Under the pieces are notes generated by a model. The model worked only from the letters and a program-made list of their open reading frames with translations, did no database searches and was not told the DNA's origin. The position numbers and the translations under genes were made by a program. Shown here one piece after another: positions 7,642 to 22,399 of a stretch of 64,000 nucleotides of DNA (position 1 is the stretch's first letter; the number at the start of each line of letters is the position of its first letter). Origin of the DNA: Antiquaquibacter oligotrophicus (GTDB lineage Bacteria > Actinomycetota > Actinomycetes > Actinomycetales > Microbacteriaceae); the NCBI RefSeq assembly GCF_020535405.1, contig NZ_CP085036.1, positions 372,001-436,000 on the forward strand, in the 5' to 3' direction.

Positions 7642-10119
7642 ATGGCTGTGAACTCGGGCGGAAACGACCAGGTCGTCACCATCGATGGTCACCGGCTGAA
7701 GCTCACGAGTCTCGACAAGGTCCTGTACCCGGAAACGGGCACAACGAAGGCCGACGTGCTCGATTACTACGCGAGAGTCGCCGAACCCCTCATCAGGCAT
7801 GCCGCCAATCGTCCCGTGACGCGAAAACGATGGGTCAACGGCGTCGGAACGGCGGATGACCCGGGGCAGATGTTCTTCCAGAAGAACCTCGATGATCGGT
7901 CTACACCGCAGTGGGTGCTACGACGCGACATCCAGCACTCCGATCACGTCAACTCCTATCCACTCGTCAACGACCGTGCGACCCTCATCTGGCTCGGCCA
8001 GATCGCGGCCCTCGAATTGCACGTTCCCCAGTGGCAGTTCGGCCGCACGGGAAAACCCAAGAATCCCGATCGTCTCGTGCTCGACCTCGACCCGGGTCCT
8101 GGAGCAGGCCTGCCGGAATGCGCCGAGGTCGCGCGGCTGGCCAGGGTGATTCTCACGGGAATGGGGCTCGACCCCATGCCCGTCACGAGCGGGTCGAAGG
8201 GAATCCACCTCTATTCCGCCATCGACGGGCGTCAGACGAGCGACCAAGTGTCCGCGGTGGCTCACGAACTCGCGCGCGCCCTCGAGGCGGATCATCCTGA
8301 CCTCATCGTGAGCGACATGAAGAAGGCGCTGCGCTCGGGCAAGGTGCTCGTCGACTGGAGCCAGAACAACGGCAGCAAAACCACCATCACGCCCTATTCC
8401 CTCCGCGGTCGACTCCAGCCGATGGTCGCCGCCCCGCGGACCTGGGATGAGCTCGACGATCCCGACCTCGCCCACCTCGACTATCGCGAGGTCATCGAGC
8501 GCGTCGAAAAGCGCGGCGACCTCCTCGAGGCGCTCACCGCTGGGCACCTCGCGTCGCTCGAGCCGACCCCCGAGCGGATGGCCGGTTTCATCCAGGCGGG
8601 CGGACCCGATGACAGGCTCGCCACGTACCGCGCGATGCGCGACGGTGAGAAAACACCGGAACCCGTGCCGAGCGAGGCGCCCCCGCCATCCGACGGGAAT
8701 TCGTTTGTCATCCAGGAACACCACGCGAGGCGCCTCCACTACGACTTCCGACTCGAACACGACGGCGTGCTCGTGAGCTGGGCGATCCCGAAAGGGGTAC
8801 CGACCGACCCCGGCCAGAATCACCTCGCCGTGCAGACCGAAGACCACCCGCTCGCGTACGGGGCGTTCGAGGGCACGATTCCCGCGGGCCAATACGGCGC
8901 AGGTGAGGTCACCATTTGGGACAAGGGCGCCTACGACCTCGAGAAATGGCGAGACGGCAAAGAGGTCATCGCCACCCTTCACGGCGAGCGCCACGGCTCG
9001 CATCGCTACGCACTCATCCACACGGGTGGCCGAGGTGGAGACGACAACAACTGGCTCATCCACCTTATGAAGCCTGCCGACGAGCAGCCCCCGCGAACGA
9101 GCAAGGCCGACTCGCGCCGTCGTGTCATCGGAGGAACGAGATCGCTGCGTTCCACGTCGGAGAAAAGGATCGCCCCCATGCTGGCGAGCCCCGGCGCACT
9201 GGGCGAACTCGGTGACAGCACGGCCTGGGCCTTCGAAATGAAATGGGACGGCATTCGAGCGATCGCCGAGATCGAGGGTGGCACCCTACGACTCGTGAGC
9301 CGCAACGGCGTCGACATCACGGTGACCTACCCGGAACTGGACGGACTGCCCCGGATGTTGCCAGCCGACGCCGTGCTCGATGGCGAGATCATCGCCCTCA
9401 ACAAGGCGGGCCGACCGGACTTCGGTGTGCTGCAGACCCGCATGAAGCTCACCAAAAAGAAGTACGTCGATGAGGCGCGCGCCACCACGCCCGTCCAGTT
9501 CATGGTGTTCGATCTGCTCGAGTACGACGGGGAGCGCTTGCTGGAGCGAACCTACGATGAGCGGCGTTCGATGCTCGAGGAGGTGCTCGCCGCCGAGCAT
9601 CCCGTCGAAGTCCCCCCGGCATTCGACGGTGACGCCAAGGCGGCCTTCGCTGCGAGCCGGGAACTTGGGCTCGAGGGAATCGTCGCGAAGCGGCGCGCGA
9701 GCGGGTATCTCCCCGGCAAGCGGGCATCGTCGTGGATCAAGCTGCGCCACAATCTCTCGCAAGAGGTTGTCATCGGCGGATGGCGACCGGGGTCGGGGGC
9801 GCGGTCGCACCGCATCGGCTCCCTGCTCATGGGAGTGCCCACCGACGAGGGTCTTCGCTACGTTGGGCGCGTCGGGTCAGGGCTGACCGACCGGCAACTC
9901 GACGAGCTAGCGTCGCGGTTGCGACGGATGTCGCGCTCGACCAGTCCCTTCGTCGGTCTCCCGCCAGCGGACGCCTCGGACGCGCACTTTGTCACCCCTC
10001 GTCTCGTGGGTGAGGTGACCTTCTCGGAGTGGACGCCGACAGGCAAGCTGCGGCACCCGTCCTGGCGGGGGTGGCGCCCGGACAAATCACCTGAGGACGT
10101 ACGCAGGGAGTCGAACTAG
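7642..10119 (+). CDS. ligD: ATP-dependent DNA ligase LigD (polymerase-phosphoesterase-ligase)
   Basis: An 825-residue multidomain NHEJ ligase with domains in the order Pol-PE-Lig, as in mycobacteria. The primase/polymerase domain spans ~1-310, with the DLDPGPG metal motif near 148. The 3'-phosphoesterase domain covers ~350-480 (HHARRLHYDFRLEHDG). The ligase domain runs from ~505 to the end, with nucleotidyl acceptor Lys534 in EMKWDGIR and a later SSWIKLR motif. It repairs double-strand breaks with Ku, encoded divergently next door, by gap filling, end cleaning and sealing. The domain complement looks intact. Confidence 0.96.
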   Translation: MAVNSGGNDQVVTIDGHRLKLTSLDKVLYPETGTTKADVLDYYARVAEPLIRHAANRPVTRKRWVNGVGTADDPGQMFFQKNLDDRSTPQWVLRRDIQHSDHVNSYPLVNDRATLIWLGQIAALELHVPQWQFGRTGKPKNPDRLVLDLDPGPGAGLPECAEVARLARVILTGMGLDPMPVTSGSKGIHLYSAIDGRQTSDQVSAVAHELARALEADHPDLIVSDMKKALRSGKVLVDWSQNNGSKTTITPYSLRGRLQPMVAAPRTWDELDDPDLAHLDYREVIERVEKRGDLLEALTAGHLASLEPTPERMAGFIQAGGPDDRLATYRAMRDGEKTPEPVPSEAPPPSDGNSFVIQEHHARRLHYDFRLEHDGVLVSWAIPKGVPTDPGQNHLAVQTEDHPLAYGAFEGTIPAGQYGAGEVTIWDKGAYDLEKWRDGKEVIATLHGERHGSHRYALIHTGGRGGDDNNWLIHLMKPADEQPPRTSKADSRRRVIGGTRSLRSTSEKRIAPMLASPGALGELGDSTAWAFEMKWDGIRAIAEIEGGTLRLVSRNGVDITVTYPELDGLPRMLPADAVLDGEIIALNKAGRPDFGVLQTRMKLTKKKYVDEARATTPVQFMVFDLLEYDGERLLERTYDERRSMLEEVLAAEHPVEVPPAFDGDAKAAFAASRELGLEGIVAKRRASGYLPGKRASSWIKLRHNLSQEVVIGGWRPGSGARSHRIGSLLMGVPTDEGLRYVGRVGSGLTDRQLDELASRLRRMSRSTSPFVGLPPADASDAHFVTPRLVGEVTFSEWTPTGKLRHPSWRGWRPDKSPEDVRRESN

Positions 10120-10620: not shown

Positions 10621-11742
10621 TCAGCTGCTGCGCGGAACCACCGTTGCCGCAGCGGCTGTGAGGTAGGCGACAAGCGGCGCAGGTAATCCGCTCGCTGGCT
10701 CGAGGAAGCCCAGAGCTCGTTCCACCGTGGTGAGCATACGGGCGCGGTGCTCATCGGCTGCGCCCGAGGCAAGGATGACCTGGCGCAGGGTCGACGCCTC
10801 GGCAGCACCCATCGACTCTTGGCCGACGAGTTCGTCGAGCCGCTCGCGCTGGGATGACGTTGAATGCTCGTAGGTGAGGCGCAGGAGCCCCGTGCGTTTG
10901 CCGCTGCGGAGGTCCGCCGTCACCGATTTACCCGTGACACCGGGGTCGCCGAAGACCCCGAGTTCGTCGTCCTTCATTTGGTACGCGACACCGAGATACT
11001 CGCCGAACCCCGTGAGAGCGGTCACTGCGAGCGCGTCTGCCCCGGCCGCGACGGCTCCCAGCCGGAGCGGCAGCACGGTTGTGTACCTGGCCGTCTTGAG
11101 GGATGCGATGACATCCGCTGGAATATCGGCGGGCGGAGCGACTTCGCTGCGAACATCGAGCCATTCCCCTCCGATCGTCACGGCGAGGGCATCGAGAAGT
11201 TCTGCCATCACGGCAACCGTGACCGTGGGCTCGAGGGGTGCAGTGAGCAACTCACGCTGGCTCTGTGCAATGGCAAGATCTCCCGCGAGAACCGCCGCTG
11301 CCATACCCTCCCGCCCCGCTCGTCCAGCCGAGCCGCCTTCGGCTAGGACTCGCTGGCGCGACAGCCCCGCCACGTTGGGTCGCCCGTGCCGCACCGCATC
11401 CCCGTCGATGAGATCGTCGTGAACACACAGACCGAGGTGGAGAAGTTGAACCGACACGGCGAGGGATGCCGCTACCGCGTCATCCTCCCCACCGAGGCCG
11501 GCGTAGCCCGCGACCGCGAGTCGCGAGCGAAGGAACTTGCCACCCGTGAGGTCTGCGAGGACTCTGGCCGGAAAGGCCGCCTCGTCGTGCCGCTCGGCAA
11601 GGGCCGCAACAACGGGACGCCAGGATTCGGCAACTCGTTCGCCGGTAGGATCCACGAGTCTGTCGACGTGCCGCGCGAAGGCCGCGGGCGTGAGGGATTC
11701 GATCGTGCTGTCCGCCATGGAGACACGGGCGTCGGCTTCCAC
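10621..11742 (-). CDS. Polyprenyl (geranylgeranyl-type) diphosphate synthase
   Basis: A ~373-residue isoprenyl synthase that elongates allylic diphosphates with IPP. It contains GGKFLRSRL, the first aspartate-rich motif in HDDLIDGD, and a second motif in YQMKDDELGVFGD followed by VTGKSVTADLRSGKRT. GTG 11742 is favoured because AGGAGGT lies 10 nt upstream; an ATG at 11718 would shorten it by 8 residues and lacks a Shine-Dalgarno. The gene is divergent from the ebo-type operon, which encodes a UbiA-family protein, so it may supply that protein's prenyl donor (inference). Chain length is not deducible, but the family resembles short-chain (C15-C20) synthases. Confidence 0.9.
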   Translation of the reverse strand: MEADARVSMADSTIESLTPAAFARHVDRLVDPTGERVAESWRPVVAALAERHDEAAFPARVLADLTGGKFLRSRLAVAGYAGLGGEDDAVAASLAVSVQLLHLGLCVHDDLIDGDAVRHGRPNVAGLSRQRVLAEGGSAGRAGREGMAAAVLAGDLAIAQSQRELLTAPLEPTVTVAVMAELLDALAVTIGGEWLDVRSEVAPPADIPADVIASLKTARYTTVLPLRLGAVAAGADALAVTALTGFGEYLGVAYQMKDDELGVFGDPGVTGKSVTADLRSGKRTGLLRLTYEHSTSSQRERLDELVGQESMGAAEASTLRQVILASGAADEHRARMLTTVERALGFLEPASGLPAPLVAYLTAAAATVVPRSS

Positions 11743-11762
11743 GGGTAGGCTGACCTCCTGTC

Positions 11763-11782
11763 GCGGCACGTCAGCGTGCCGC
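11763..11782. repeat. Perfect 8-bp inverted repeat, tetraloop TCAG
   Basis: GCGGCACG and CGTGCCGC flank a TCAG loop, 21 nt upstream of the polyprenyl synthase GTG, so it would lie in that gene's 5' leader or act as an operator. Confidence 0.45.
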
Positions 11783-11899
11783 CTCGAGCGCCCGAGAATT
11801 CGGGACTGAGGCTCCCTGGGCGTACGTCCAGTATGACTCACACTCCGTAATTTGTTGGGCGCTAGCAGAAACGGCAGTCCACGCGGTCTACCCCACGGT

Positions 11900-11918
11900 C
11901 GATCTCACCTCGAGATCG
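11900..11918. repeat. 7-bp inverted repeat (possible operator) upstream of the ebo-type promoter
   Basis: CGATCTC and GAGATCG are separated by 5 nt, about 40 nt upstream of the operon -35 element. This is a plausible binding site for a dimeric regulator; no regulator gene lies nearby. Confidence 0.3.
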
Positions 11919-11957
11919 GCGTAAGTGAGTAGCGGTCAGGGGCGCGGGCATTTTGTT

Positions 11958-11986
11958 TTGACGTCCGGAGAAATATCGCTTAGCGT
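11958..11986 (+). promoter_or_regulatory. Sigma-70-type promoter for the ebo-type operon
   Basis: TTGACG (11958-11963), a 17-nt spacer, then TAGCGT (11981-11986). The predicted transcript starts near 11993, giving a ~57-nt leader with a GGGAGC ribosome-binding site 9 nt before the ATG at 12050. It differs from the leaderless promoters that dominate the window. Confidence 0.55.
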
Positions 11987-12049
11987 CCTCATAGCCGTTC
12001 TGTCGGCATGTGTGCGATGGCGGACGCAGAGATTGGGAGCACTTCAACG

Positions 12050-13228
12050 ATGAATCGTGATTCTGGCAAGCGAACGGGCCTCTGGCTCGTCGGAGGGCGC
12101 GGAAGCGTCGCAACAACGGCCGCGCTCGGCATCGCGGCACTGAGCCGAAATCTGGCCGAACCGGTGGGTCTCGCCACCGAGAGCGCGCAGCTGCGTGACC
12201 TCCCCATGCCTGCACTGAGCGACCTGATTGTCGGCGGTCACGATGTCGGCACGACTCCGCTGGCCGACAAAGCCCGAGCGCTGAGCGCCGCAGGCATGAT
12301 CGACGGCGCCCTCGTCGCATCGGTCGCCGACGACCTGAGCGCGCTCGACGAGAACATCCTTCCCGTTCCCACCGCCCCCACCCAGGCCGAGGAGATCGAG
12401 CTCCGCGCCGCCGACATTGCGGCCTTCCGTGAGCGCAACGGGCTCGACCGTGTTGTTGTCATCGACGTGTCGTCGACCGAGCCGCTTCCCGCGTATCGCA
12501 GTGAGTTCGAGGATCGCTCCCTCCTCGAAGCCGCACTCGCGACGCCCGGGGATGCCGTGCTCCCGCCGAGCTCGCTCGGGGCACTCGCCGCGGTCACCGC
12601 GGGCGCCGCCTACGCGTGCTTCACGCCGTCGACCTCGCTCAACCTTCCCGTGTTGTGGCAGTGGGCGACGGATGCCGGCATCCCCTTCGCCGGCCAGGAC
12701 GGCAAGACAGGTGAGACCCTCCTGCGCACCGTGCTCGCGCCGATGTTCACCTCGCGTGGGATGAAGGTGCGCTCGTGGGCCGGCACCAACCTGCTCGGCG
12801 GCGGCGACGGGCAAACCCTCGCCGACCCGGAAGCCGTTCGCTCGAAGCTCGCGTCGAAGAACCGCGGGCTGCACGCGCTCCTCGGCCCCGACGTCGTCGC
12901 ACCCTTGCACATCGACAACGTGCCGGACCTCGGCGACGTCAAGACGGCGTGGGATCACGTGAGCGCCGAGGGCTTCCTCGGCAGTCGCGTCATCCTCCAG
13001 ACGACCTGGAGCGCGTACGACTCCATGCTCGCCGCACCCCTCGTGATCGACCTCGCGCGTCTTCTCTCCCTCGCCCAGGCGAGCGGCGAGAGCGGCCCCG
13101 TCGGTGCACTCGGCTTCTTCTTCAAGGATCCGTGGGGCAGCGATGTTCACGCGTTCGCAGACCAGACGAACCTGCTCACCGAGTGGGCCCAGCGCGTCGC
13201 ATCACGACTGCCCGTCGGAACCCCCTGA
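12050..13228 (+). CDS. Myo-inositol-1-phosphate-synthase-like cyclase, first gene of ebo-type operon
   Basis: A 392-residue homologue of NAD-dependent inositol-3-phosphate synthases, which cyclise glucose-6-phosphate. An N-terminal Rossmann loop is present (LVGGRGSV, residues ~13-20). A core segment GQDGKTGETLLRTVLAPMF, then NLLGGGDGQTLADPEAVRSK, aligns with the eukaryote-like MIPS motifs GDDxKSGQTKxKS and NHLGNNDGxNL. Signature residues differ: the LWTANTE region reads IDVSSTE, and the second Lys-rich step reads TLLR. The reaction may therefore not be inositol phosphate formation. Start 12050 has a GGGAGC ribosome-binding site; ATGs at 12008-12017 lack one. Its stop overlaps the next ATG (TGATG). 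Confidence 0.82.
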   Translation: MNRDSGKRTGLWLVGGRGSVATTAALGIAALSRNLAEPVGLATESAQLRDLPMPALSDLIVGGHDVGTTPLADKARALSAAGMIDGALVASVADDLSALDENILPVPTAPTQAEEIELRAADIAAFRERNGLDRVVVIDVSSTEPLPAYRSEFEDRSLLEAALATPGDAVLPPSSLGALAAVTAGAAYACFTPSTSLNLPVLWQWATDAGIPFAGQDGKTGETLLRTVLAPMFTSRGMKVRSWAGTNLLGGGDGQTLADPEAVRSKLASKNRGLHALLGPDVVAPLHIDNVPDLGDVKTAWDHVSAEGFLGSRVILQTTWSAYDSMLAAPLVIDLARLLSLAQASGESGPVGALGFFFKDPWGSDVHAFADQTNLLTEWAQRVASRLPVGTP

Positions 13229-14127
13229 TGCCCCTGCGCGACTATCTCGAACTCGTTCGTGCCCCCGCGGCACTCTCCGTCATCGGTGACACCGTTGTTG
13301 GAGCGAGTTGGGCGGGTCGCCCCCTACACGGCAGGGCGATCGGTTTGCCGATCTCCTCGGTGCTGCTCTACTGGGCGGGCATGGCCCTCAACGACGTGGC
13401 GGATGCCGATCTCGATGCAGTGGAACGACCCGAGAGACCCATTCCCTCCGGGCGGATCTCTCGGCGTGCCGCGACGATCACCGCTGGAGCTCTCGTGGCT
13501 GGCGGTATCGCCGCCGCGGGAATCTTCGGCGGTCGCCGTTCGGTTGCTATGGCCCTGCCCTTGGCCGCAGCTATCTGTACGTACAACCTCGCCGCGAAAA
13601 ACGGTCCGTTCGGCCCCGTGGTCATGGCCGCATGTCGCGGTCTCGACGTCCTAGTCGGCTCCGGGTCCGACCGTGCCCTCGCCGCAGCTCCCGCGGCCGC
13701 GATCGTTGCGGGCCACACCGCCAGCGTCACAGTGCTCTCGCGCGGCGAAGTGCACGGTTCGACCACCAAAGCGGTCAGCGGTTCGGTAGCTGCGACGGCC
13801 GCGGTCACGGCCGCCACCGTGCTTGTGCCGGCACCGGCCGCGGCGCACCCCGATGAGAGCCTCGGTCGAAGCGCTGGAGCACTCGGTGCCGCCCGATTCG
13901 CCGTCGAGGTCGGGGTTCCCCAAGCCGCCGCTGCCGCGGACCCGCAAGCCGGCCCGATTCGCACGGCCACGCGGGCCGGGATCATGGGCATGATCCCGCT
14001 CCAGGCAGGCCTTGTCGCGCGAGCGGGCAACCTGGTCGGCGCGATCGCCCTCGCAGCCCTCGATCTCACTCTCGAGTCTCGACGGGCGCGCGCGTCAGCC
14101 GCCACGCGGGGAGCTTCGATCACGTGA
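13228..14127 (+). CDS. eboC: UbiA-family prenyltransferase-like membrane protein (EboC-like)
   Basis: A 299-residue integral membrane protein with 7-9 predicted helices. The first UbiA aspartate motif is complete, Asn55-Asp56-x2-Asp59-x3-Asp63, followed by RPERPIPSGRIS. It would bind Mg2+ and a polyprenyl diphosphate. The second aspartate motif of canonical UbiA enzymes is not evident; the corresponding stretch reads CRGLDVLVGSG (~136-146). EboC proteins in described ebo clusters are UbiA-like too. It is coupled 1 nt into the upstream cyclase gene and by GTGA to the next gene. The acceptor is unknown; a cyclitol phosphate is a guess from context. Confidence 0.83.
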   Translation: MPLRDYLELVRAPAALSVIGDTVVGASWAGRPLHGRAIGLPISSVLLYWAGMALNDVADADLDAVERPERPIPSGRISRRAATITAGALVAGGIAAAGIFGGRRSVAMALPLAAAICTYNLAAKNGPFGPVVMAACRGLDVLVGSGSDRALAAAPAAAIVAGHTASVTVLSRGEVHGSTTKAVSGSVAATAAVTAATVLVPAPAAAHPDESLGRSAGALGAARFAVEVGVPQAAAAADPQAGPIRTATRAGIMGMIPLQAGLVARAGNLVGAIALAALDLTLESRRARASAATRGASIT

Positions 14128-15002
14128 GCCCGAATCTCCTCCCGGTCTTGGGTTATGGAACAAACGGCTTCACCGATCACACCCTCAACGACATGCTCGA
14201 CGTCGTCGCCGGGTACGGCTACGAGGCCATTGCGCTCACGCTCGGGCATCCGCACTTCGATCCTTTTGCCGATGAGTGGGAGCGTCGGGCGCGGGAGCTT
14301 CGATCGGCCCTCCATGAGCGCGGCATGCGTGTTGTCGTCGAGACCGGTGCGCGCTACCTCTTGGACCCGTACGTGAAGCACCATCCGACACTCGTGGACC
14401 GTGAGGCCTCGCGACGGTTGACCTTCCTCGCCCGCGCCATCGAGATCGCTGGAGTGCTCGACGCGGACTGCGTGTCTCTGTGGTCCGGTGTCACTCCCGA
14501 CGACGTCACCTCCGATGAGGCGTGGTCGATGCTCGTCGAGCGAATGGCTGATGTTGTCGCACTCGCATCGGTTCGCGGTGTCCAGCTGGGGTTCGAACCC
14601 GAACCGGGAATGCGTGTCGAGACCGTCGCGGATGCCCTGGCGTTGCGTGAGGAACTCGGCAACCCCGACCGCCTCGGCATCACCGTCGACCTCGGGCACT
14701 GCGTCGCTGTCGAGCCGGGCGGTGTTGTCGACGCACTCCGCTCCGCCGGCGATCTGCTCGTCAACGTGCAGGTCGACGACATGATGCCGGGTGTCCACGA
14801 GCACCTCGAACTCGGCACAGGACAACTCGATCTCGCTCTCGCGTTTCGAACTCTCAGCGAGATCGGGTATGACGGAGTAGCAGCCATCGAACTCCCCCGG
14901 CATTCGCACGCAGCGCCGCGGCTCGCACGGGAGAGCATGGAACGGATGCGCGAGGCGCTGAACGCGGCCTCGGAGTCGACGACGACCCGAAAGAGTTTGT
15001 GA
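14124..15002 (+). CDS. TIM-barrel sugar phosphate isomerase/epimerase-like protein
   Basis: A 292-residue xylose-isomerase-like (AP endonuclease 2 fold) protein. Likely metal-site features are GFEPEPG (~156-162), TVDLGHC and NVQVDDMMPGVHEH (one His and acidic ligands), and a late AAIELPRHSH. Members isomerise or epimerise sugars or polyols, including inositol catabolites, which fits the MIPS-like neighbour. The operon carries a second member of this fold (EboE) with the same EPEPG signature. The GTG start overlaps the preceding stop (GTGA), and the stop lies 8 nt before the eboA ATG. Confidence 0.8.
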   Translation: MSPNLLPVLGYGTNGFTDHTLNDMLDVVAGYGYEAIALTLGHPHFDPFADEWERRARELRSALHERGMRVVVETGARYLLDPYVKHHPTLVDREASRRLTFLARAIEIAGVLDADCVSLWSGVTPDDVTSDEAWSMLVERMADVVALASVRGVQLGFEPEPGMRVETVADALALREELGNPDRLGITVDLGHCVAVEPGGVVDALRSAGDLLVNVQVDDMMPGVHEHLELGTGQLDLALAFRTLSEIGYDGVAAIELPRHSHAAPRLARESMERMREALNAASESTTTRKSL

Positions 15003-15010
15003 GGAGAGCC

Positions 15011-15628
15011 ATGACAAGTCCCGACGAATGGATGTCGCAGGCCACTGCCGCTGTACGCGAGAAGCCTGCTGCTGCGCTGCGTTGGCTCGCCCAAGCCGGT
15101 CTCGGGGTGGGTCGCGATCCCCTCGACGCCGACGATCCGGCCGGACTCGTTGCGGGCACGACGGCGGATGCCGCTCGCGCGACACTCGTCGTCGAGCTAT
15201 CCGGAGTGCTCGACGACAGCGCGTTTGCCGCAGCCGTCACGTCGCTTTACGAGCAGGGTGACAACGAGGTCAAGCGCGGGGTACTGCGCGGGCTCAACGA
15301 ACTTGCCGCGGAAGACGAGTTGCCAGCCCCCGTGGCTGCGGCAGGTGTGGCTTTGGTGCACGACGCGTTCCGTGCGAACGATCCCCGGCTCGTGGCATCC
15401 GGTATGGGCGCCTTCGCGGGTCGTCACCTCGACCAGGACACCTGGCGTCAGGGTGTCATCAAGCTCGTCTTCATGGATGTGCCCTTCACCGCCGTGGCGC
15501 GCCTGGACGAGCGTCGCGACGACGAACTGGAACGTATGGCAAGAGACCTCGTGCGTGAACGGAGTTCCGCCGGTCGTGTCATCACCACAGACCTCAGCAC
15601 ACTCGCCGAGCCGATCGCGAAGGGATAG
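15011..15628 (+). CDS. eboA: EboA-domain protein
   Basis: A 205-residue, soluble, helix-rich protein matching the EboA family, a marker of ebo clusters with no known biochemical activity. Recognisable family features are the LYEQGDNEVKRGVLRGLNEL helix pair, a FRANDPR segment, a WRQGVIKLVFMDVPFTAVARLDER core, and a conserved end containing LVRERSSAGR. A good GAGGAGAG ribosome-binding site precedes ATG 15011. It follows the TIM-barrel gene and is 5 nt upstream of eboB. In cyanobacterial scytonemin producers ebo genes are reported to be needed to move a precursor to the periplasm; transfer of that role here is inference. Confidence 0.85.
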   Translation: MTSPDEWMSQATAAVREKPAAALRWLAQAGLGVGRDPLDADDPAGLVAGTTADAARATLVVELSGVLDDSAFAAAVTSLYEQGDNEVKRGVLRGLNELAAEDELPAPVAAAGVALVHDAFRANDPRLVASGMGAFAGRHLDQDTWRQGVIKLVFMDVPFTAVARLDERRDDELERMARDLVRERSSAGRVITTDLSTLAEPIAKG

Positions 15629-15633
15629 CGGCC

Positions 15634-16512
15634 ATGCGCATCTTCGATCCACACATCCACATGTCCGCCCGAACCACGGACGACTACGAATCGATGTTCG
15701 CCGCGGGTGTTCGCGCCGTCGTCGAGCCCGCATTCTGGCTGGGGCAACCTCGAACCAACGTCGGCTCGTTCATCGACTACTTCGACCTCATCACCGGGTG
15801 GGAGCGATTCCGGGCCTCGCAGTTCGGCATCCGGCATCACGCGACGATCGGCCTCAACCCGAAAGAGGCCAATGACCCGCGCTGCCGCGAGGTCATGAGC
15901 GAGTTGCCGCGCTTCCTCGTTCGCGAATCGGTTGTCGCGATCGGCGAGACCGGCTACGACTCGATGACCGTCGAGGAGCAGGACGTCTTCGAAGAGCACA
16001 TGCAGCTCTCGAAGGACTACGACCTTCCCGTACTCGTTCACACACCCCACCGCGACAAGCTTTCCGGCACCAAGCGCACACTCGATGTCGTCGCCTCCTC
16101 GGGAGTGGCGCCAGAGCTCGTTGTGGTTGATCACCTCAACGAGCTCACGGTCGACCTCGTCGCCGAGTCGGGATGCTGGATGGGCTTCTCCATCTATCCG
16201 GACACGAAGATGGACGAGCAGCGGATGGTGGCGATCCTGCGGCGCATCGGCACCGACCGCATCCTCATCAACTCTGCGGCGGACTGGGGTCGCTCCGATG
16301 TGCTCAAAACGCTGAAGACCGGAAAGCTCATGCTCGAGTCCGGTTTCACCGAGGCCGACGTCGATCGTGTGCTGTGGCAAAACCCCATCGACTTCTACGG
16401 GCAGAGCGGACGTGTGGATGTCACACCGCTCGCCGGGTTCGAGGCACTCGAGGCTCCCCCGCTGTTCGAGGGCAACTCGGTGCAGCGCGGAGCGCCCGTG
16501 GTCGCCCCATGA
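15634..16512 (+). CDS. eboB: TatD-family metal-dependent hydrolase (EboB-like)
   Basis: A 292-residue amidohydrolase-fold protein. Metal ligands are visible in the expected order: His7 and His9 (PHIH), Glu105 (GETGYD), His136 (VHTPH), His167 (VVDHLNE) and Asp217 (NSAADWG). It lacks nothing essential, so catalysis is likely, but the substrate is unknown. TatD proteins are best known as nucleases; in ebo clusters the function is probably specialised to the unknown metabolite. It overlaps eboE by 4 nt (ATGATG/TGA). Confidence 0.85.
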   Translation: MRIFDPHIHMSARTTDDYESMFAAGVRAVVEPAFWLGQPRTNVGSFIDYFDLITGWERFRASQFGIRHHATIGLNPKEANDPRCREVMSELPRFLVRESVVAIGETGYDSMTVEEQDVFEEHMQLSKDYDLPVLVHTPHRDKLSGTKRTLDVVASSGVAPELVVVDHLNELTVDLVAESGCWMGFSIYPDTKMDEQRMVAILRRIGTDRILINSAADWGRSDVLKTLKTGKLMLESGFTEADVDRVLWQNPIDFYGQSGRVDVTPLAGFEALEAPPLFEGNSVQRGAPVVAP

Positions 16513-17630
16513 TGCACCTGTCGTACTGCACCAACGTGCATCCGGCCGAGGACCTGGACGGCGTCATCGCCCAACTCGACCAGTTTGCGGGCCCGGCGCG
16601 ATCCGAGGCCGAGCTCGACGTCGTCGGCGTCGGGCTGTGGCTGCCAGCGGAACTGGCGCACGAGCTCGCCACGAACGAAACGTCGCGCGACAGACTTCGA
16701 GCAGCACTCGAACGCAACGGTCTTGAGGTCCGCACGCTCAACGCGTTTCCCTACGCTGCCTTCCACGCCGAGGTCGTGAAGCTCGACGTCTACCTTCCCG
16801 ACTGGACCGACCGACGCCGACTCGAGTACACGATCGACGCCGCTCGGGCCCTCGCGGCCTTCCTGCCACCTCGTGCCGACGGCAGCATCTCCACCCTTCC
16901 GCTCGGCTGGCGCACCGGATGGGGCCCCGCCGAGGACGAGGTCGCCACCGCAGCCTTCGTCGAGCTGGTCGCAGCCCTCGAGCAGATTCGCGACACCACG
17001 GGCCACACGATTCGCATCGGCATCGAGCCGGAGCCCGGATGCATCCTCGACAACGTGGCCGACATCGTCGAGTGGCTGGGTGCCAGAAGCGATGTCATCG
17101 ATCCCGAGTTCGTCGGAGTGTGCCTGGACACCTGCCACCTCGCTGTGTCGTTCGCCGACCCGACGGAAGCCGTGACCGCCATCGAGTCCGCGGGTCTCAA
17201 GGTCGTGAAGATCCAGGCCTCGGCGGCCCTCGAGGTGCTGACCCCCGCGGATCCCGCCTCGCGCGAGGCGATCGCCGTGTTCGGTGAGCCGCGATACGTG
17301 CATCAGGTCCGCGAGCGTCATGCCGACGGCATCCTGCGAGTCGATGACCTCGACGAGGCTCTCGCGACTCTTCCCGGCAACGGACCGTGGCGCGTGCACT
17401 TCCACGTTCCGCTGCACATGGTGCCGGATGCCCCGCTCGGAGCCACGACGGACGTGCTGCGCACGGCGGTTGACGCCGTCGTGGCGACACGCCCGACCCA
17501 CGACGTGCACCTCGACGTTGAGACCTACACCTGGTCCGTCCTACCCGAACCACCCGCCGACCTCGCGGCCGGTATCGCAAGCGAGCTGGCCTGGGCCCAG
17601 CGCGAACTGATGGGAGCACGCATCGAATGA
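16509..17630 (+). CDS. eboE: EboE-like metabolite traffic protein (xylose-isomerase-like TIM barrel)
   Basis: A 373-residue TIM-barrel protein of the EboE type. The start reads MMHLSYCTNVHPAED, a signature seen in EboE proteins. Metal-binding candidates lie in GIEPEPGC (~171-178), CLDTCHLAVSF (~200-210), HFHVPLHM and the final VDVETYTW. It is ~80 residues longer than the companion barrel gene upstream. Tandem ATGs at 16509/16512 overlap the eboB stop; I used the first. Its stop overlaps the eboF start (ATGA). In described clusters EboE is linked to precursor handling and transport, but a reaction is not established. Confidence 0.85.
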   Translation: MMHLSYCTNVHPAEDLDGVIAQLDQFAGPARSEAELDVVGVGLWLPAELAHELATNETSRDRLRAALERNGLEVRTLNAFPYAAFHAEVVKLDVYLPDWTDRRRLEYTIDAARALAAFLPPRADGSISTLPLGWRTGWGPAEDEVATAAFVELVAALEQIRDTTGHTIRIGIEPEPGCILDNVADIVEWLGARSDVIDPEFVGVCLDTCHLAVSFADPTEAVTAIESAGLKVVKIQASAALEVLTPADPASREAIAVFGEPRYVHQVRERHADGILRVDDLDEALATLPGNGPWRVHFHVPLHMVPDAPLGATTDVLRTAVDAVVATRPTHDVHLDVETYTWSVLPEPPADLAAGIASELAWAQRELMGARIE

Positions 17631-19024
17631 CGCGTCCGATTCTGCTTCTGGACATCGTGGGTCTCACCGCCCCGATCCTGGAGCACATGCCTCGCCTTTC
17701 CGCACTTGCGCGCGCGGGCTCGCAGTCGAGTCTCGGCACGGTGCTGCCTGCCGTGACGTGTTCCGTGCAGTCGACGATCCTCACGGGAACGATGCCGTCG
17801 GAGCACGGAATCGTCGGCAACGGCTGGTACTTCCGGGGCCTCGGTGACGTCTACCTGTGGCGCCAGCACAACAAGCTCGTCGCCGGAGAGAAGGTCTGGG
17901 AGACGGCTCGACGCACGAAGCCGGACTATCGGGCGGCCAACCTCGGCTGGTGGTACGCGATGGGGGCCACAACGGACGTCACCGTGACTCCCCGACCGAT
18001 TTACCATGCCGACGGTCGCAAATCGGCCGACGCATACGTACGCCCACCCAGCCTTCACGATGACCTCGAGACGCGGTTCGGCGAGTTCCCGCTCTTCCAG
18101 TACTGGGGGCCCACCGCCACGATCAAGTCCTCGCAGTGGCTCATCGACTCGACCCGGTACATCCTCGAGGGTGGTGGCACGGGTGGCGCGGTTCCCGACC
18201 TGACCATGACCTACCTCCCCCACTTGGACTACGACCTTCAGCGATTCGACCCGGAGGGCCCGGAAGCCGCGAAGGCGGCCGCCGAACTGGATGCTGCACT
18301 CGCGCCGCTCCTCGACCAGGCCGAGCGACAGGGGGTCACCGTCGTCGCTCTCGCGGAGTACGGTCTCGCAGCAGCGAACAAGCCCATCGACGTCAATCGT
18401 GCGCTTCGGCGCGAGGGTCTTCTCGAGGTCTACGTGCAGCAGGAGCTCGAACAGCTCGACCCGTGGACCTCGCGTGCGTTCGCGGTGGCCGACCACCAGA
18501 TCGCCCACGTCTACGTGGACAACCCCGACGACATCCCCCACGTTCGCTCGATTCTTGAGGGACTCGACGGGGTCGCCGAGGTCCTGGACCGCGAACAGCA
18601 GGCGGCCTACGGTCTCGACCACGAGCGGGCTGGTGAACTCGTCGCCGTGGCCGCCCCCGGCGCATGGTTCACCTACTACTTCTGGCTCGACGACGACAAG
18701 GCTCCCGAGTACGCCCGGGGAGTGGACATCCATCGCAAGCCCGGCTACGACCCCGCTGAACTGTTCTTCAACCCGGCCGACCCGCTTGTGAAGGTCAAAG
18801 CGGCGGGCAACCTCGTGAAGAAGGCTGTCGGTCTGCGTTACGCGATGAAGGCGATCCCGCTGGATCCCACCATCGTGAAGGGCACACACGGGCGTCTCCC
18901 GAGCGGACCGGCCGACACCCCGATCATCCTGTCCTCCGACCCGGCGTTCCTCGCGGGCGAGGGAGATGTCGTTCCCGCGACGGCGGTCAAGAGCCTCATC
19001 CTCCGAGCGCAGGGTTTGGGCTGA
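17627..19024 (+). CDS. eboF: Alkaline-phosphatase-superfamily phosphodiesterase (EboF-like)
   Basis: A 465-residue type I phosphodiesterase/nucleotide pyrophosphatase-like protein. Asp9 and the nucleophile Thr44 (PAVTCSVQST) match the metal/nucleophile site, and a late THGRLP supplies another ligand. The usual GDHG metal motif reads AEYGLAA here, and the PDxxGH motif reads PHLDYDLQR, so the metal centre is modified. No signal peptide or membrane helix is seen, which places it in the cytoplasm. It may release phosphate or split a nucleotide- or prenyl-phosphate from the metabolite made by the operon; this is inference. It ends the operon and converges on aspA. Confidence 0.84.
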   Translation: MTRPILLLDIVGLTAPILEHMPRLSALARAGSQSSLGTVLPAVTCSVQSTILTGTMPSEHGIVGNGWYFRGLGDVYLWRQHNKLVAGEKVWETARRTKPDYRAANLGWWYAMGATTDVTVTPRPIYHADGRKSADAYVRPPSLHDDLETRFGEFPLFQYWGPTATIKSSQWLIDSTRYILEGGGTGGAVPDLTMTYLPHLDYDLQRFDPEGPEAAKAAAELDAALAPLLDQAERQGVTVVALAEYGLAAANKPIDVNRALRREGLLEVYVQQELEQLDPWTSRAFAVADHQIAHVYVDNPDDIPHVRSILEGLDGVAEVLDREQQAAYGLDHERAGELVAVAAPGAWFTYYFWLDDDKAPEYARGVDIHRKPGYDPAELFFNPADPLVKVKAAGNLVKKAVGLRYAMKAIPLDPTIVKGTHGRLPSGPADTPIILSSDPAFLAGEGDVVPATAVKSLILRAQGLG

Positions 19025-19043: not shown

Positions 19044-20564
19044 CTAGGTCAGCTCGTCTGGCGGGAGTTGCACCGGGAGCGTGAGTGCGCCCGTGAGTGG
19101 AACCATGCCAGACAGTCGCTCGGGCGAGAGAACGCGGTCGACTTGTTCGGCCTCCATGAGGCCCGCCTCGACAACAAGGTCGCGAATCGAGGCGTTCGAG
19201 GTGAGTGCCGTGTGCGCGAGGGATGCCGCCGCCTGGTAGCCGATGTACGGGGTGAGCGCCGTGACCACCCCGACACTCGTCTCGACCTGCATCGCGAGCC
19301 GCTCGGTGTTGGCCGTGATGCCCTCGATGCAGTTCACCCGCAGTGTGTAACAGGCGTTGGTCATCCACGCCAGTGACTGCAAGATCGAACTCGCGATCAC
19401 GGGCTCGAAAGCATTGAGCTGAAGTTGCCCGGCCTCGGCCGCAGCCGTCACCGTTGCGTCAGCGCCGATCACCGAAAACGCGACCTGGTTGACGACCTCG
19501 GGGATGACCGGGTTCACCTTGCCCGGCATGATCGACGACCCCGCCTGGCGGGCGGGGAGGACGATCTCGCCGAGTCCCGCCTGCGGTCCGCTCGACAGCA
19601 GGCGCAGATCGTTGCAGATCTTGGAGAGTTTGACGGCCGCGCGCTTGAGGGTGGCACTCGCGGTCATAAAGATGCCGGCATCCGACGTCGCCTCGATGAG
19701 GTCGGGTGCGGTCTCCATCTCGATTCCCGTGACCTCGACGAGGTGACGGCGCACGGCCTCGGCATACCGCGGATCGGCCGTGATGCCCGTCCCGATTGCG
19801 GTGGCACCCATGTTGATCTCGTTGAGCCACGGGATCACCTCCGAGAGGCGATCGTCGTCCTCGGCGAGGGTCGTGGCGAATCCCGAGAACTCCTGACCGA
19901 GAGTCATGGGAACGGCATCCTGGAGTTGCGTTCGCCCGATCTTGAGAACGGATGCGAACTCCCGCCCCTTCTGAGCGAAAGCCGCCCGCAGCTGGCGGTG
20001 TTCGTCGAGGAGGCGCTGGATGCCGAACACCATCGCGAGTTTGATGGCGGTGGGATACACGTCGTTGGTGGACTGGCTCCGGTTGACGTCGTCGATCGGA
20101 TGCAGGTAGGCGTAGTCTCCACGCTCGCGCCCGAGCAGCTCGAGCCCACGATTGGCGATGACCTCGTTGGCGTTCATGTTCGTCGACGTGCCGGCACCAC
20201 CCTGGATCGCACCGACACAAAACTCCTGGTGGAGGGCCCCCGCGACAATCTCCTCACACGCCCGGTCGATGACATCCGCTTTGGTGTCGCTGAGAGCACC
20301 CAACTCCCGATTGGCGCGAGCGGCAGCCTGCTTGACGCGTGCGAGGGCGATCACGAGGTAGGGATAGTTGTAGATGGCACGGCGCGTAATGGGGAAGTTT
20401 TCCAGTGCCCTGGCCGTATGAATACCCCAGTACGCTTCGGCGGGGATCGGCATCGATCCGAGCGAATCGCTCTCGAGCCGTGTGGGGATCTCCCCCCGGA
20501 GCGCAGCGAGGAACTCGCGACGCGGCCACATCTCGTCCCCTGTGAGGAATCCGTCCGTTGTCAT
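19044..20564 (-). CDS. aspA: Aspartate ammonia-lyase
   Basis: A 506-residue member of the fumarase/aspartase superfamily that converts L-aspartate to fumarate and ammonia. It has GGAGTSTNMNANEV, RSQSTNDVYPTA, and the mobile signature loop GSSIMPGKVNP bearing the catalytic Ser. The length and GGAGTSTNMNANEV favour aspartase over fumarase. The first ~35 residues (with MWPRREFL) are an extension beyond the usual start. ATG 20564 is preceded by AGGAGGT at 5 nt and overlaps the DUF2207 stop (TAATG), so the two genes are co-translated although functionally unrelated. Confidence 0.92.
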   Translation of the reverse strand: MTTDGFLTGDEMWPRREFLAALRGEIPTRLESDSLGSMPIPAEAYWGIHTARALENFPITRRAIYNYPYLVIALARVKQAAARANRELGALSDTKADVIDRACEEIVAGALHQEFCVGAIQGGAGTSTNMNANEVIANRGLELLGRERGDYAYLHPIDDVNRSQSTNDVYPTAIKLAMVFGIQRLLDEHRQLRAAFAQKGREFASVLKIGRTQLQDAVPMTLGQEFSGFATTLAEDDDRLSEVIPWLNEINMGATAIGTGITADPRYAEAVRRHLVEVTGIEMETAPDLIEATSDAGIFMTASATLKRAAVKLSKICNDLRLLSSGPQAGLGEIVLPARQAGSSIMPGKVNPVIPEVVNQVAFSVIGADATVTAAAEAGQLQLNAFEPVIASSILQSLAWMTNACYTLRVNCIEGITANTERLAMQVETSVGVVTALTPYIGYQAAASLAHTALTSNASIRDLVVEAGLMEAEQVDRVLSPERLSGMVPLTGALTLPVQLPPDELT

Positions 20565-22399
20565 TAGCGACCTCCTCCGCCGCCGCCTCCGCCGCCACCA
20601 CCGGAGAAACCTCCCCCGCTGGAGCCGCTGGAGAAACTGGATCCGCCCGACGACGACCAGCTCGATCCTGACGACGATGAGGTGACGATGGGGCGCACCG
20701 ACGACATCGACGACGCGGAGAAGCCGCGCAGAGTGCTGACCGAGAGATCGGTTCCGTCGAGCCACGCGGGAGCAGCATCCGGCCACTGCGCACGGAGCAC
20801 CTCCACCCACTGGTCCTCGACGCCCCACAGCACCGCGTAGGGAAGAAGTCGCTCGTTGAGCTTCACGACGGCACCCCGATCGGTCGGATCGACGCGCAGT
20901 GCTCCATCGGGAGATTGCAGCATCCGGAAGCGCTCCTCCTCGGCCACCGTGAGGTAAAGCTTCAGGCCCTCGAGGTACTCCTTGTGGTCCGCACCTGCGC
21001 GCGTGAGCCTCGCCGGGACTGCCAGGATGATCGACACGGCGAGCGCCAGGACAGTCGCGACGAGGGCCGGCACAACGACCTCCGCGACGAGGGCCCCCAT
21101 CCACACCGCCCAGACCCACAGTGCACCGAACCCGAGCCACGTGACGAGCGAGATCCTGCGGAGCCAGACCTGGGCCGCCGTCTTCGGCTTGGCACGTAAT
21201 CCTTCCGAGATCGCCGCGCTTGTTGTCGAAGCCGGAAGGCCGTAGAGGCTCGCGCCGGTCGCGGCCGGGAGCGCGTCCAGTTGGATCCGCTTGCCGGGTT
21301 CGAGCTTCGAACCGAACAGCGCACGCAGGACTCGCAGTTCACGGGAGTTCGCGCCTTCGCCCGAGACGAGCTCGAGAGAGAACGCGGAACTCGTTGCCGA
21401 ACCCTTACTCCTGTCGATGATTGTGACGAGTCCGCGTACCGCGAAGTCCACGAGGAGCGCGGGCAATCCCGATCGCTGGCGACCGATGATCTCTGCGTCC
21501 ATGAGCAGATCGCTATCGCGGGGTGGCTCATAGTGGGCAATGATGGTGCCCCGGCCGCGTGCATCCCTCAGTACGAAGGTGCGTAGAAGCACGGCGATGA
21601 CGACCCACAGACCCGAGGCACCGAGAAGCACCTTGGGGAGCACCTGGATGGGCCACGTCTCGCGCGGCGGTGTCGGTTGAACGACGGTGCCGCCCTCGAA
21701 GCCAATCGCGACGGTCAGCGTGTTGTAGGCGCCTACCTCCTCGACGCGGGTGGAAATGGTGTCGCCCTCGGCACGGATGTCGCACTCGTTCTGCTCCCCG
21801 TAGTAGCCGAGATAGCAGCTCACGTTCCCCGTGAGTGCGTCCACGAGATCCGCAGAGAGGTGGACTGTCGCGCTGACCGAACCGAACGGTTGTGGCCACC
21901 CATCCCCGTTGACATCCCAGTAGAACTCGTCGCCACCGGAGTCCTCAAAATGACGGATGACGTCACGCATCGTGTACTCGATGACGTAGGTGGTCCGTCC
22001 CTGCACGTAATCGTCGGTGCCGAGGGCGAGTTCGGCGAACCCGTAGTAGTCGTCCCGTTCGAAGGGCACCGGCGTGCCGTTCTCATCGGTGACCGAAACG
22101 ACGGAGAGGTGCAGCGGTGTCTCGTCGTAGTCCAGGGGTATAGCCCTGATGATGCCGCGGTTCTGGTCGAAGTCTGGGAACAGGGCGACGATGGTCTCCA
22201 CAACACGGAGTTTCGCTCGGCCAGAATCATCCGTGTCCAGGTAGTACTGCGCATCGAACGACTCGAACGTGAAGTCCTCGACACCGTTCGCGACCGTGCG
22301 TGGATCGGGCTGCGCCGCATCCGCCGACGGAGCGCCGATCACACCGAACAGGGGGGCGAGAACGATGGCCGCGACCGCGGCGATGCGCACGTGCTTCAC
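20564..22399 (-). CDS. DUF2207 membrane protein with poly-Gly C-terminus (paralogue 1)
   Basis: A 611-residue protein. A signal peptide covers ~1-28 (cleavage after ADA). An extracytoplasmic DUF2207 beta-rich domain spans ~40-240 (TFESFDAQYYLD, NRGIIRAIPLDYDE, DEFYWDVNGDGWPQPFGSVSATV). One helix lies near 260, a cytoplasmic region follows, then two adjacent helices near 420-460. The end is Ser/Gly-rich with 11 consecutive Gly. Function of the family is unknown. It shares this architecture with the gene at 32096-33937. It has a leaderless GTG start (TAGTCT, 6 nt), and aspA is fused to its stop by TAATG. Confidence 0.85.
   Translation of the reverse strand: MKHVRIAAVAAIVLAPLFGVIGAPSADAAQPDPRTVANGVEDFTFESFDAQYYLDTDDSGRAKLRVVETIVALFPDFDQNRGIIRAIPLDYDETPLHLSVVSVTDENGTPVPFERDDYYGFAELALGTDDYVQGRTTYVIEYTMRDVIRHFEDSGGDEFYWDVNGDGWPQPFGSVSATVHLSADLVDALTGNVSCYLGYYGEQNECDIRAEGDTISTRVEEVGAYNTLTVAIGFEGGTVVQPTPPRETWPIQVLPKVLLGASGLWVVIAVLLRTFVLRDARGRGTIIAHYEPPRDSDLLMDAEIIGRQRSGLPALLVDFAVRGLVTIIDRSKGSATSSAFSLELVSGEGANSRELRVLRALFGSKLEPGKRIQLDALPAATGASLYGLPASTTSAAISEGLRAKPKTAAQVWLRRISLVTWLGFGALWVWAVWMGALVAEVVVPALVATVLALAVSIILAVPARLTRAGADHKEYLEGLKLYLTVAEEERFRMLQSPDGALRVDPTDRGAVVKLNERLLPYAVLWGVEDQWVEVLRAQWPDAAPAWLDGTDLSVSTLRGFSASSMSSVRPIVTSSSSGSSWSSSGGSSFSSGSSGGGFSGGGGGGGGGGGR

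Follow-up and report, generated by a model that had tools for sequence, protein, structure and literature searches.

An ebo-type operon of Antiquaquibacter oligotrophicus with a MIPS-like cyclase, and its association with secreted GSDH-family proteins in actinomycetes

Results

The window, a stretch of 64,000 nucleotides from Antiquaquibacter oligotrophicus (G000:C1:372001-436000, where G000 is the 2.9-Mb single-contig genome), carries an ebo-type operon in which a cyclase resembling myo-inositol phosphate synthase (MIPS) stands in place of EboD. The operon occupies 12008-19024 on the + strand and encodes, in this order, the MIPS-like cyclase, a UbiA prenyltransferase, a TIM barrel protein, EboA, EboB, EboE and EboF. 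A preliminary description of the window had reported seven tightly packed genes of these families, and the coordinates and the Pfam and NCBIfam matches bear this out: there are overlaps of 1 or 4 bases at five of the six junctions, while a gap of 5 bases separates EboA from EboB.

The cyclase (12008..13228, +) is of the NAD-dependent sugar-phosphate cyclase kind and matches PF07994 with 145 bits and PF01658 with 103 bits, both over cut-off. Next lies the UbiA-superfamily prenyltransferase (13228..14127, +), the counterpart of EboC, with an NDxxDxxxD motif in its translation. It passes NF045897 (312 bits, cut-off 260), an NCBI UbiA family that takes its name from SCO3242, and gives 150 bits with the EboC model NF035940, below the cut-off of 250; by the NCBI cut-offs it belongs to the SCO3242 family and is not EboC as had been stated. 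The third gene (TIM1; 14124..15002, +; PF01261, 135 bits) encodes a xylose-isomerase-like TIM barrel, distantly related to IolO, IolE and 3-epimerases and resembling sugar 3-epimerases and isomerases in its PDB matches. It is an addition relative to the described ebo operons, which have no such gene. There follow EboA (14999..15628, +; EboA domain NF035938, 122 bits, cut-off 50), the TatD-like metal-dependent hydrolase EboB (15634..16512, +; PF01026, 59 bits, conserved in operon position), the TIM barrel EboE (16509..17630, +; NF035939, 415 bits, cut-off 250) and EboF, a type I phosphodiesterase / nucleotide pyrophosphatase (17627..19024, +; PF01663, 208 bits). Among the matches listed from named genomes, the closest EboE comes from an Agromyces metagenome-assembled genome (66% identity). 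The best solved-structure match of EboE is weak (1I60, E=5.5e-5); this is IolI, an inosose isomerase, and the match would be in line with a cyclitol. A polyprenyl diphosphate synthase (10621..11841, -; PF00348, 121 bits) is transcribed divergently from the operon, as previously described.

The ebo operon eboABCDEF (Open Biol 2016, PMC5133447) has the same EboA, EboB, EboC-like UbiA, EboE and EboF in one operon and the same logic of a cyclase with a prenyltransferase; it differs in its dehydroquinate synthase (DHQS)-like EboD, instead of which the window has the MIPS-like cyclase and the extra TIM barrel. EboE, EboA, EboB, EboF and a UbiA prenyltransferase do lie together here, and because a DHQS-like EboD is lacking, the operon is a variant rather than a standard ebo operon. 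Its absence from the operon had been noted before, and the proposed search for EboD elsewhere agrees with it: the whole genome holds a single PF01761 match, the only gene of the DHQ-synthase family, and this is AroB (TIGR01357, 342 bits, cut-off 305; PRK06203, 163 bits, cut-off 333). EboD elsewhere in the window genome is thus ruled out. The EboD of locus L029, by comparison, passes PRK06203 with 563 bits.

The cyclase is the one MIPS family gene found in the window genome. Among solved structures, phmmer places it closest to 1U1I (196 bits), which we take to be from Archaeoglobus, and 7NWR (160 bits); the TIGR03450-like structure 1GR0, presumably from Mycobacterium, is far (45 bits), and TIGR03450 itself, the actinobacterial mycothiol Ino1, gives 34.7 bits against a cut-off of 638. 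The residues altered in PDB entries 3QVW, 3QVX and 3QW2, which we assume to be the catalytic residues of MIPS, are identical in the window protein and invariant in 24/24 aligned sequences, and to judge from this alignment the catalytic residues are intact. A MIPS relative has likewise been recruited to a dedicated cyclitol pathway in the case of the five-membered-cyclitol-phosphate synthase (PDB 6K96, presumably from aristeromycin synthesis), which reaches only 36 bits with the window protein by phmmer, against 196 for 1U1I.

The distribution was examined in 396 Actinomycetota genomes that were not picked by likeness to the window. EboE, detected by NF035939, is present in 19 of them. A profile of ebo-type MIPS, built from 24 proteins, finds 17 genomes at 504-617 bits, followed by a gap down to 339 bits; one of those counted, G161, has its MIPS in two neighbouring pieces (368 and 188 bits). 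All 17 are EboE-positive with MIPS and EboE in one cluster, and no EboE-negative genome among the 396 has an ebo-type MIPS. The co-occurrence search suggested earlier for actinomycetes thus gives MIPS in 17/19 EboE-bearing genomes and EboD in one, G381, whose cluster is of the EboD type (PRK06203, 563 bits, cut-off 333). In G279, the MIPS (327 bits) adjoins TIM1 on another contig, and UbiA pieces, EboA, EboB, EboF and a broken EboE are located apart from it. Among Actinomycetota with EboE, the MIPS arrangement is the norm.

The 100 loci scored for gene order comprise the window itself, 19 stretches drawn from 18 genomes and, from named genomes, another 80 loci; because these 80 were the best-scoring relatives of the window EboE in a longer scan (all bearing actinomycete names), proportions in this set are biased to the window type. 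Sampling beyond Actinomycetota consisted of plasmid records. A MIPS is present in 70 loci (L044 being cut at a contig end) and EboD in 1, 16 have no cyclase despite room, and 13 are cut off on the upstream side; none of the 100 loci has both cyclases. The order MIPS-UbiA-TIM1-EboA-EboB-EboE-EboF recurs in 67/100 loci, as the preliminary description would have it in proposing a check of synteny. The MIPS-less Streptomyces and Lentzea loci were considered as counter-examples. All of the 16 roomy loci except L043 (G279) were tested, and for 14 of these 15 loci the genome holds an ebo-type MIPS elsewhere, which in 10 of the 14 adjoins further ebo genes; as counter-examples they are thus set aside, apart from L111.

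Two further ebo clusters, L190 (S. canus, G405) and L191 (Streptomyces sp. WM6386, G404), contain a short N-terminal MIPS remnant, and both genomes have a full-length MIPS elsewhere, beside a GSDH gene. In eight MIPS-less Streptomyces clusters (L026, L065, L067, L070-L072, L087 and L093), a CrtO-like FAD oxidoreductase lies directly upstream of UbiA; further upstream, an inositol-monophosphatase-family gene is found in 7 and a gamma-glutamyltransferase-like gene in 7.

The polyprenyl synthase had been taken, together with UbiA, to suggest a prenylated cyclitol-type product or carrier. It is present in the window but is no general partner: only 9/100 loci, the window included, have one near the operon at >300 bits, and 2 more at 227-238 bits. 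The loci come from several families, and since the synthases occur in so few loci and in differing positions, the polyprenyl synthase is an optional partner of the operon.

To delimit what was exchanged, MIPS-type clusters can be set against five EboD-type loci, from Actinomycetota genome G381 and from plasmids of Deinococcus, Azospirillum, Roseivivax and Ketogulonicigenium. Both types have the EboB/E/F/UbiA backbone in common. A TIM1 counterpart is found in 0/5 EboD-type loci, where the TIM1 profile merely touches the EboE frames (44-53 bits). The exchange of one cyclase for another, as first suggested, holds on the gene content of these clusters, with EboD of actinomycete ebo-type operons apparently exchanged for a non-homologous MIPS-like cyclase; the idea of one gene for one gene does not, as the exchanged unit would be MIPS plus TIM1.

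Support for such a module comes from a plasmid cluster of Gemmatirosa (Gemmatimonadota), with MIPS (407 bits), TIM1 (315), UbiA (166), EboF (654), EboB (340) and EboE (364; NF035939, 460 bits) and with no DHQS-like gene in the 19 kb examined. A tree of concatenated EboB, EboE, EboF and UbiA was made by a quick method from 30 loci, with 24 actinobacterial MIPS-type rows including L067 and L087, MIPS-less copies from genomes with MIPS elsewhere. In this tree, Gemmatirosa joins the EboD-type loci of Deinococcus and G381 (Shimodaira-Hasegawa-like approximate likelihood ratio test, SH-aLRT, 100), and the cyclase label requires at least 2 changes. Because the Gemmatirosa MIPS+TIM1 cluster has a backbone nested among EboD types, the cyclase type changed at least twice. 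In the MIPS tree, with the TIGR03450-type Ino1 rows excluded, the Gemmatirosa MIPS is sister to 22 ebo MIPS and apart from 13 other actinobacterial MIPS (bootstrap/SH-aLRT 100/100; ebo MIPS clade 100/98). An Ino1-rooted tree was discarded, since with branch lengths of 5 to 9 it has no meaning; the Ino1 rows come out on the ebo side in it. In the TIM1 tree, Gemmatirosa sits on a long branch and has no settled position. The simplest reading of this one Gemmatimonadota locus is that a MIPS+TIM1 module was transferred between ebo backbones.

MIPS and a TIM1 homologue are likewise neighbours, ~6 kb apart or less, in six EboE-less genomes. One of these loci was annotated (L193:836-8581, G076) and has an operon of its own, which encodes a MIPS-like cyclase, a methyltransferase, an IolG-like dehydrogenase, a YcaO protein, TIM1 and two unknown proteins and may represent a cyclitol pathway, so far undescribed, that involves a YcaO enzyme; in the other five (L194-L198; G053, G173, G237, G065 and G152), MIPS and TIM1 were checked.

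The genes flanking the operon point to a partner. Clustering of the flanking genes gives one family that adjoins the operon in 42 of the 100 loci, and its representative has ThuA, glucose/sorbosone dehydrogenase (GSDH), PKD and CBM6 domains. The GSDH profile finds a neighbour in 43/70 MIPS loci, in 0/17 roomy loci without MIPS and in 0/13 cut-off loci; for MIPS loci against roomy MIPS-less loci Fisher p = 1e-6, which is not strict because the loci are related. Families with such a neighbour include Streptomycetaceae, Pseudonocardiaceae, Micrococcaceae and Jiangellaceae, and in L184, L185 and L176 a MIPS that lies apart from the ebo genes still adjoins a GSDH-type gene. Other recurrent neighbours are ribose-type ABC transporters (by a broad profile that many loci without GSDH also match), ROK regulators, GFO/IDH/MocA oxidoreductases and further TIM barrels. 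A GSDH gene lies ≤12 kb from EboE in 10/19 EboE genomes, where ~0.45 is expected from copy numbers. By a crude signal-peptide script, which is not a trained predictor, 49/60 open reading frames (ORFs) are positive.

The association also holds at the level of genomes. An ebo-type GSDH profile, built from 18 GSDH domains and run over the 396 genomes, splits the scores cleanly, with a best score of at least 541 bits in 19 genomes and 109 bits in the next. EboE is present in 15/19 genomes with ebo-type GSDH and in 4/377 without (Fisher p = 3e-20). Shuffling within families, over the 120 listed genomes of families holding either trait (unlisted genomes without matches being left out), yields 8.2 on average, compared with 15 observed, and 0/200,000 shuffles are as high. 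Linkage alone is no explanation for this co-occurrence, because the GSDH genes are on other contigs than EboE in G268, G279 and G097 and 1.5 Mb away in G000. Some GSDH-family gene is present in all 19 EboE genomes; canonical GSDH is widespread and occurs in 6/14 control genomes. The link between MIPS-type ebo operons and secreted GSDH-family proteins is new here.

In the window genome, an island at G000:C1:1950500-1990300 (L230, L231) holds four large open frames with GSDH domains, of 1694-2429 residues. In the one that was annotated, PKD, CBM6 and TIM barrel domains and cell-wall-binding repeats are found as well; its neighbours encode GFO/IDH/MocA, ROK and TIM barrel proteins and a sugar-binding protein.

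To our knowledge, the known GSDH enzymes use pyrroloquinoline quinone (PQQ). PqqC is over cut-off in 2/19 EboE genomes (G161 and G369), thus the search is able to detect the gene; it does not show PqqC in 13/15 genomes with both EboE and ebo-type GSDH, and 0/14 control genomes are positive either. These 13 genomes may take up PQQ instead of making it. In G369, a canonical GSDH gene is 1.2 kb from pqqC. We compared 55 ebo-type GSDH ORFs, some from overlapping loci, with 11 canonical ones in the numbering of soluble glucose dehydrogenase (sGDH). His144, Arg228 and Asn229 are kept in 55/55 ebo-type ORFs. An Arg at 408 is found in 0/55 ebo-type and 11/11 canonical ORFs, a Lys or Arg at 377 is absent from all of the ebo-type ORFs with a residue listed there (54 of the 55) and present in 9/11 canonical ones, and Arg406 is kept in 12/55 ebo-type ORFs. 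According to PMC6881789, Lys377 and Arg408 of sGDH bind PQQ and His144 is the catalytic residue; the paper also describes a fungal enzyme which lacks Lys377 and still binds PQQ. On these residues the PQQ pocket of ebo-type GSDH proteins is predicted to be altered, and loss of PQQ is a possibility.

Discussion

We propose that the window holds an ebo-type biosynthetic operon in which MIPS and TIM1 have displaced EboD, and which makes a membrane-anchored prenyl-cyclitol for use outside the membrane. This is probably correct, although by no means assured. It draws on the identity of the genes, the intact catalytic residues, the synteny, at least two cyclase changes and the co-occurrence with GSDH, from which we infer every step of the pathway. 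MIPS would convert glucose-6-phosphate or a near relative to an inositol phosphate; TIM1, and perhaps EboE, would isomerise or epimerise a keto-cyclitol; EboF would remove phosphate; and UbiA would attach a polyprenyl chain, for which the neighbouring polyprenyl synthase would be the source in the window. Finishing or organising the pathway would fall to EboA and EboB. The resulting membrane-anchored prenyl-cyclitol would act outside the membrane, where its users in actinomycetes would most probably be secreted GSDH-family beta-propeller oxidoreductases, with the product as cofactor or carrier. An isoprenoid-cyclitol product was already proposed for the ebo operon in the part of PMC5133447 available to us. 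That two unrelated cyclases occupy the same place in the operon speaks indirectly for a cyclitol in the product.

Several observations weigh against this proposal. The window operon itself has no GSDH neighbour; G150, G318 and G352 have the MIPS operon without a GSDH-type protein, and G031, G258, G347 and G353 have the protein without the MIPS operon. In G000, G268 and G318, the ebo-type MIPS is the only MIPS seen. The locus L111 (G409) lacks MIPS, and no ebo-type MIPS was found in its genome. The Gemmatirosa cluster has no EboA in the 19 kb examined. By model scores the window UbiA belongs to the SCO3242 family rather than to EboC, and for the EboC relative Ubi-297 the reported prenyl acceptor is an aromatic acid (PMC9235831). 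The MIPS and EboD modules may also yield different molecules, because MIPS makes a cyclitol phosphate and EboD-type enzymes are said, in the part of PMC5133447 available, to release an unphosphorylated cyclitol.

The Ebo proteins might instead be export machinery that carries metabolites over the membrane, a role put forward in the case of the scytonemin monomer, with the cyclase making a lipid carrier and the actinomycete copies serving varied natural-product clusters. According to the accessible part of PMC6282210, the monomer stays in the cytoplasm in Nostoc ebo mutants, unlike in scyE mutants, and the authors inferred the export role from this. Indeed, two MIPS-type ebo operons on Streptomyces plasmids, L174 and L175, lie beside type II polyketide synthase (PKS) and nonribosomal peptide synthetase (NRPS) genes, respectively, and corresponding genes are placed by partial published accounts in the calcium-dependent antibiotic (CDA) cluster of S. 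coelicolor. However, none of the eight proteins matches a transporter family in Pfam or NCBIfam, and the commonest neighbours in the 100 loci, where PKS/NRPS genes were not scanned for, are sugar oxidation and uptake genes. The same available text of PMC6282210 gives all Nostoc ebo mutants as biochemically identical to the scyE mutant, in that the monomer accumulates, which a missing ScyE cofactor would also produce. We regard a role in export as a serious but rather unlikely option.

The frequent sugar-related neighbours lend some weight to a catabolic island, in which the operon together with GSDH, ThuA, 3-keto-disaccharide hydrolase, GFO/IDH/MocA, sugar ABC and ROK genes would break down some uncommon glycoside or cyclitol, with the products as substrates of MIPS and UbiA; a similar ensemble is indeed found on the unlinked island of the window genome. 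We consider this improbable: MIPS, UbiA and polyprenyl synthase are biosynthetic, and the two genes scanned beside the window operon (LigD and an aspartase-like lyase) are of another kind. It is more improbable still, to the point that we give it very little credence, that the MIPS is an ordinary source of inositol for phosphatidylinositol or mycothiol which lies in the operon by chance. The intact catalytic residues would suit such a source, as would the single MIPS family gene of the window genome and the lack of a second one in G268 and G318. On the other side, a separate TIGR03450-type Ino1 of >500 bits is present in 11/17 genomes with ebo-type MIPS and another MIPS at ~250 bits in 3 further ones, thus the ebo MIPS is usually a dedicated paralogue, and its restriction to EboE-positive genomes among the 396 speaks against a housekeeping role too. 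As a candidate, the housekeeping gene is therefore unlikely in most genomes, G000, G268 and G318 excepted.

Returning to the proposed prenyl-cyclitol, we suggest a more specific and decidedly tentative idea, for which we see only a modest chance: ebo operons may make a prenylated, cyclitol-derived cofactor or electron carrier other than PQQ for exported beta-propeller oxidoreductases; these would be the divergent GSDH proteins of actinomycetes and the ScyE of cyanobacteria. ScyE is periplasmic and of the beta-propeller clan, as given in the accessible part of PMC4870267. A missing ScyE cofactor would account for the phenotype shared by ebo and scyE mutants, and alone it leaves the localisation result unexplained. 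If the idea is true, the scytonemin failure of ebo mutants is that of ScyE without its cofactor, and the MIPS and EboD types of operon reach related head groups by different routes.

Ebo operons occur widely, and ten years after the ebo operon was named we met no product assignment in our literature searches. For an assay, the first step is better understood in the MIPS version, and co-inheritance with GSDH-type proteins of altered PQQ site provides a specific candidate partner protein; the cyanobacterial export phenotype may thus allow another reading. We met no report of MIPS in ebo clusters in these searches, which left most subscription papers beyond reach, and 'inositol' is absent from the main texts of PMC5133447, PMC9235831 and PMC6282210.

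Parts of the MIPS-type operon have been in plain sight, since NCBI family names and the S. coelicolor annotation exist. Within the SCO3237-SCO3243 set of the CDA cluster, we take SCO3238-3241 to be counterparts as well. The corresponding phosphodiesterase SCO3237, transferase SCO3242 and myo-inositol phosphate synthase SCO3243 are named singly in the parts of the printed record available, there without connection to ebo. The accessible text of PMC5133447 mentions actinobacterial TIM-EboA fusions. The EDB cluster of Pseudomonas fluorescens NZI7 holds a full ebo cluster, and is of the EboD type, with an eboD homologue named (both in the available part of PMC6282210), in contrast to the MIPS type of the window; its heterologous expression led to indoles according to the accessible part of a review (PMC9655573). 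Ubi-297 is the UbiA of ebo clusters, Saccharomonospora included, as the available text of PMC9235831 has it, and the Saccharomonospora locus L090 has MIPS in our set. The enzymes tested there were from Maribacter, Zobellia and Algoriphagus and farnesylate 8-HQA, and it is EboD that the accessible text speaks of.

Beside the operon region, the window encodes a multi-domain LigD ligase of non-homologous end joining upstream (7642-10119, +) and, downstream (19044-21140, -), an aspartate ammonia-lyase-like protein with ~220 additional N-terminal residues that have no Pfam match.

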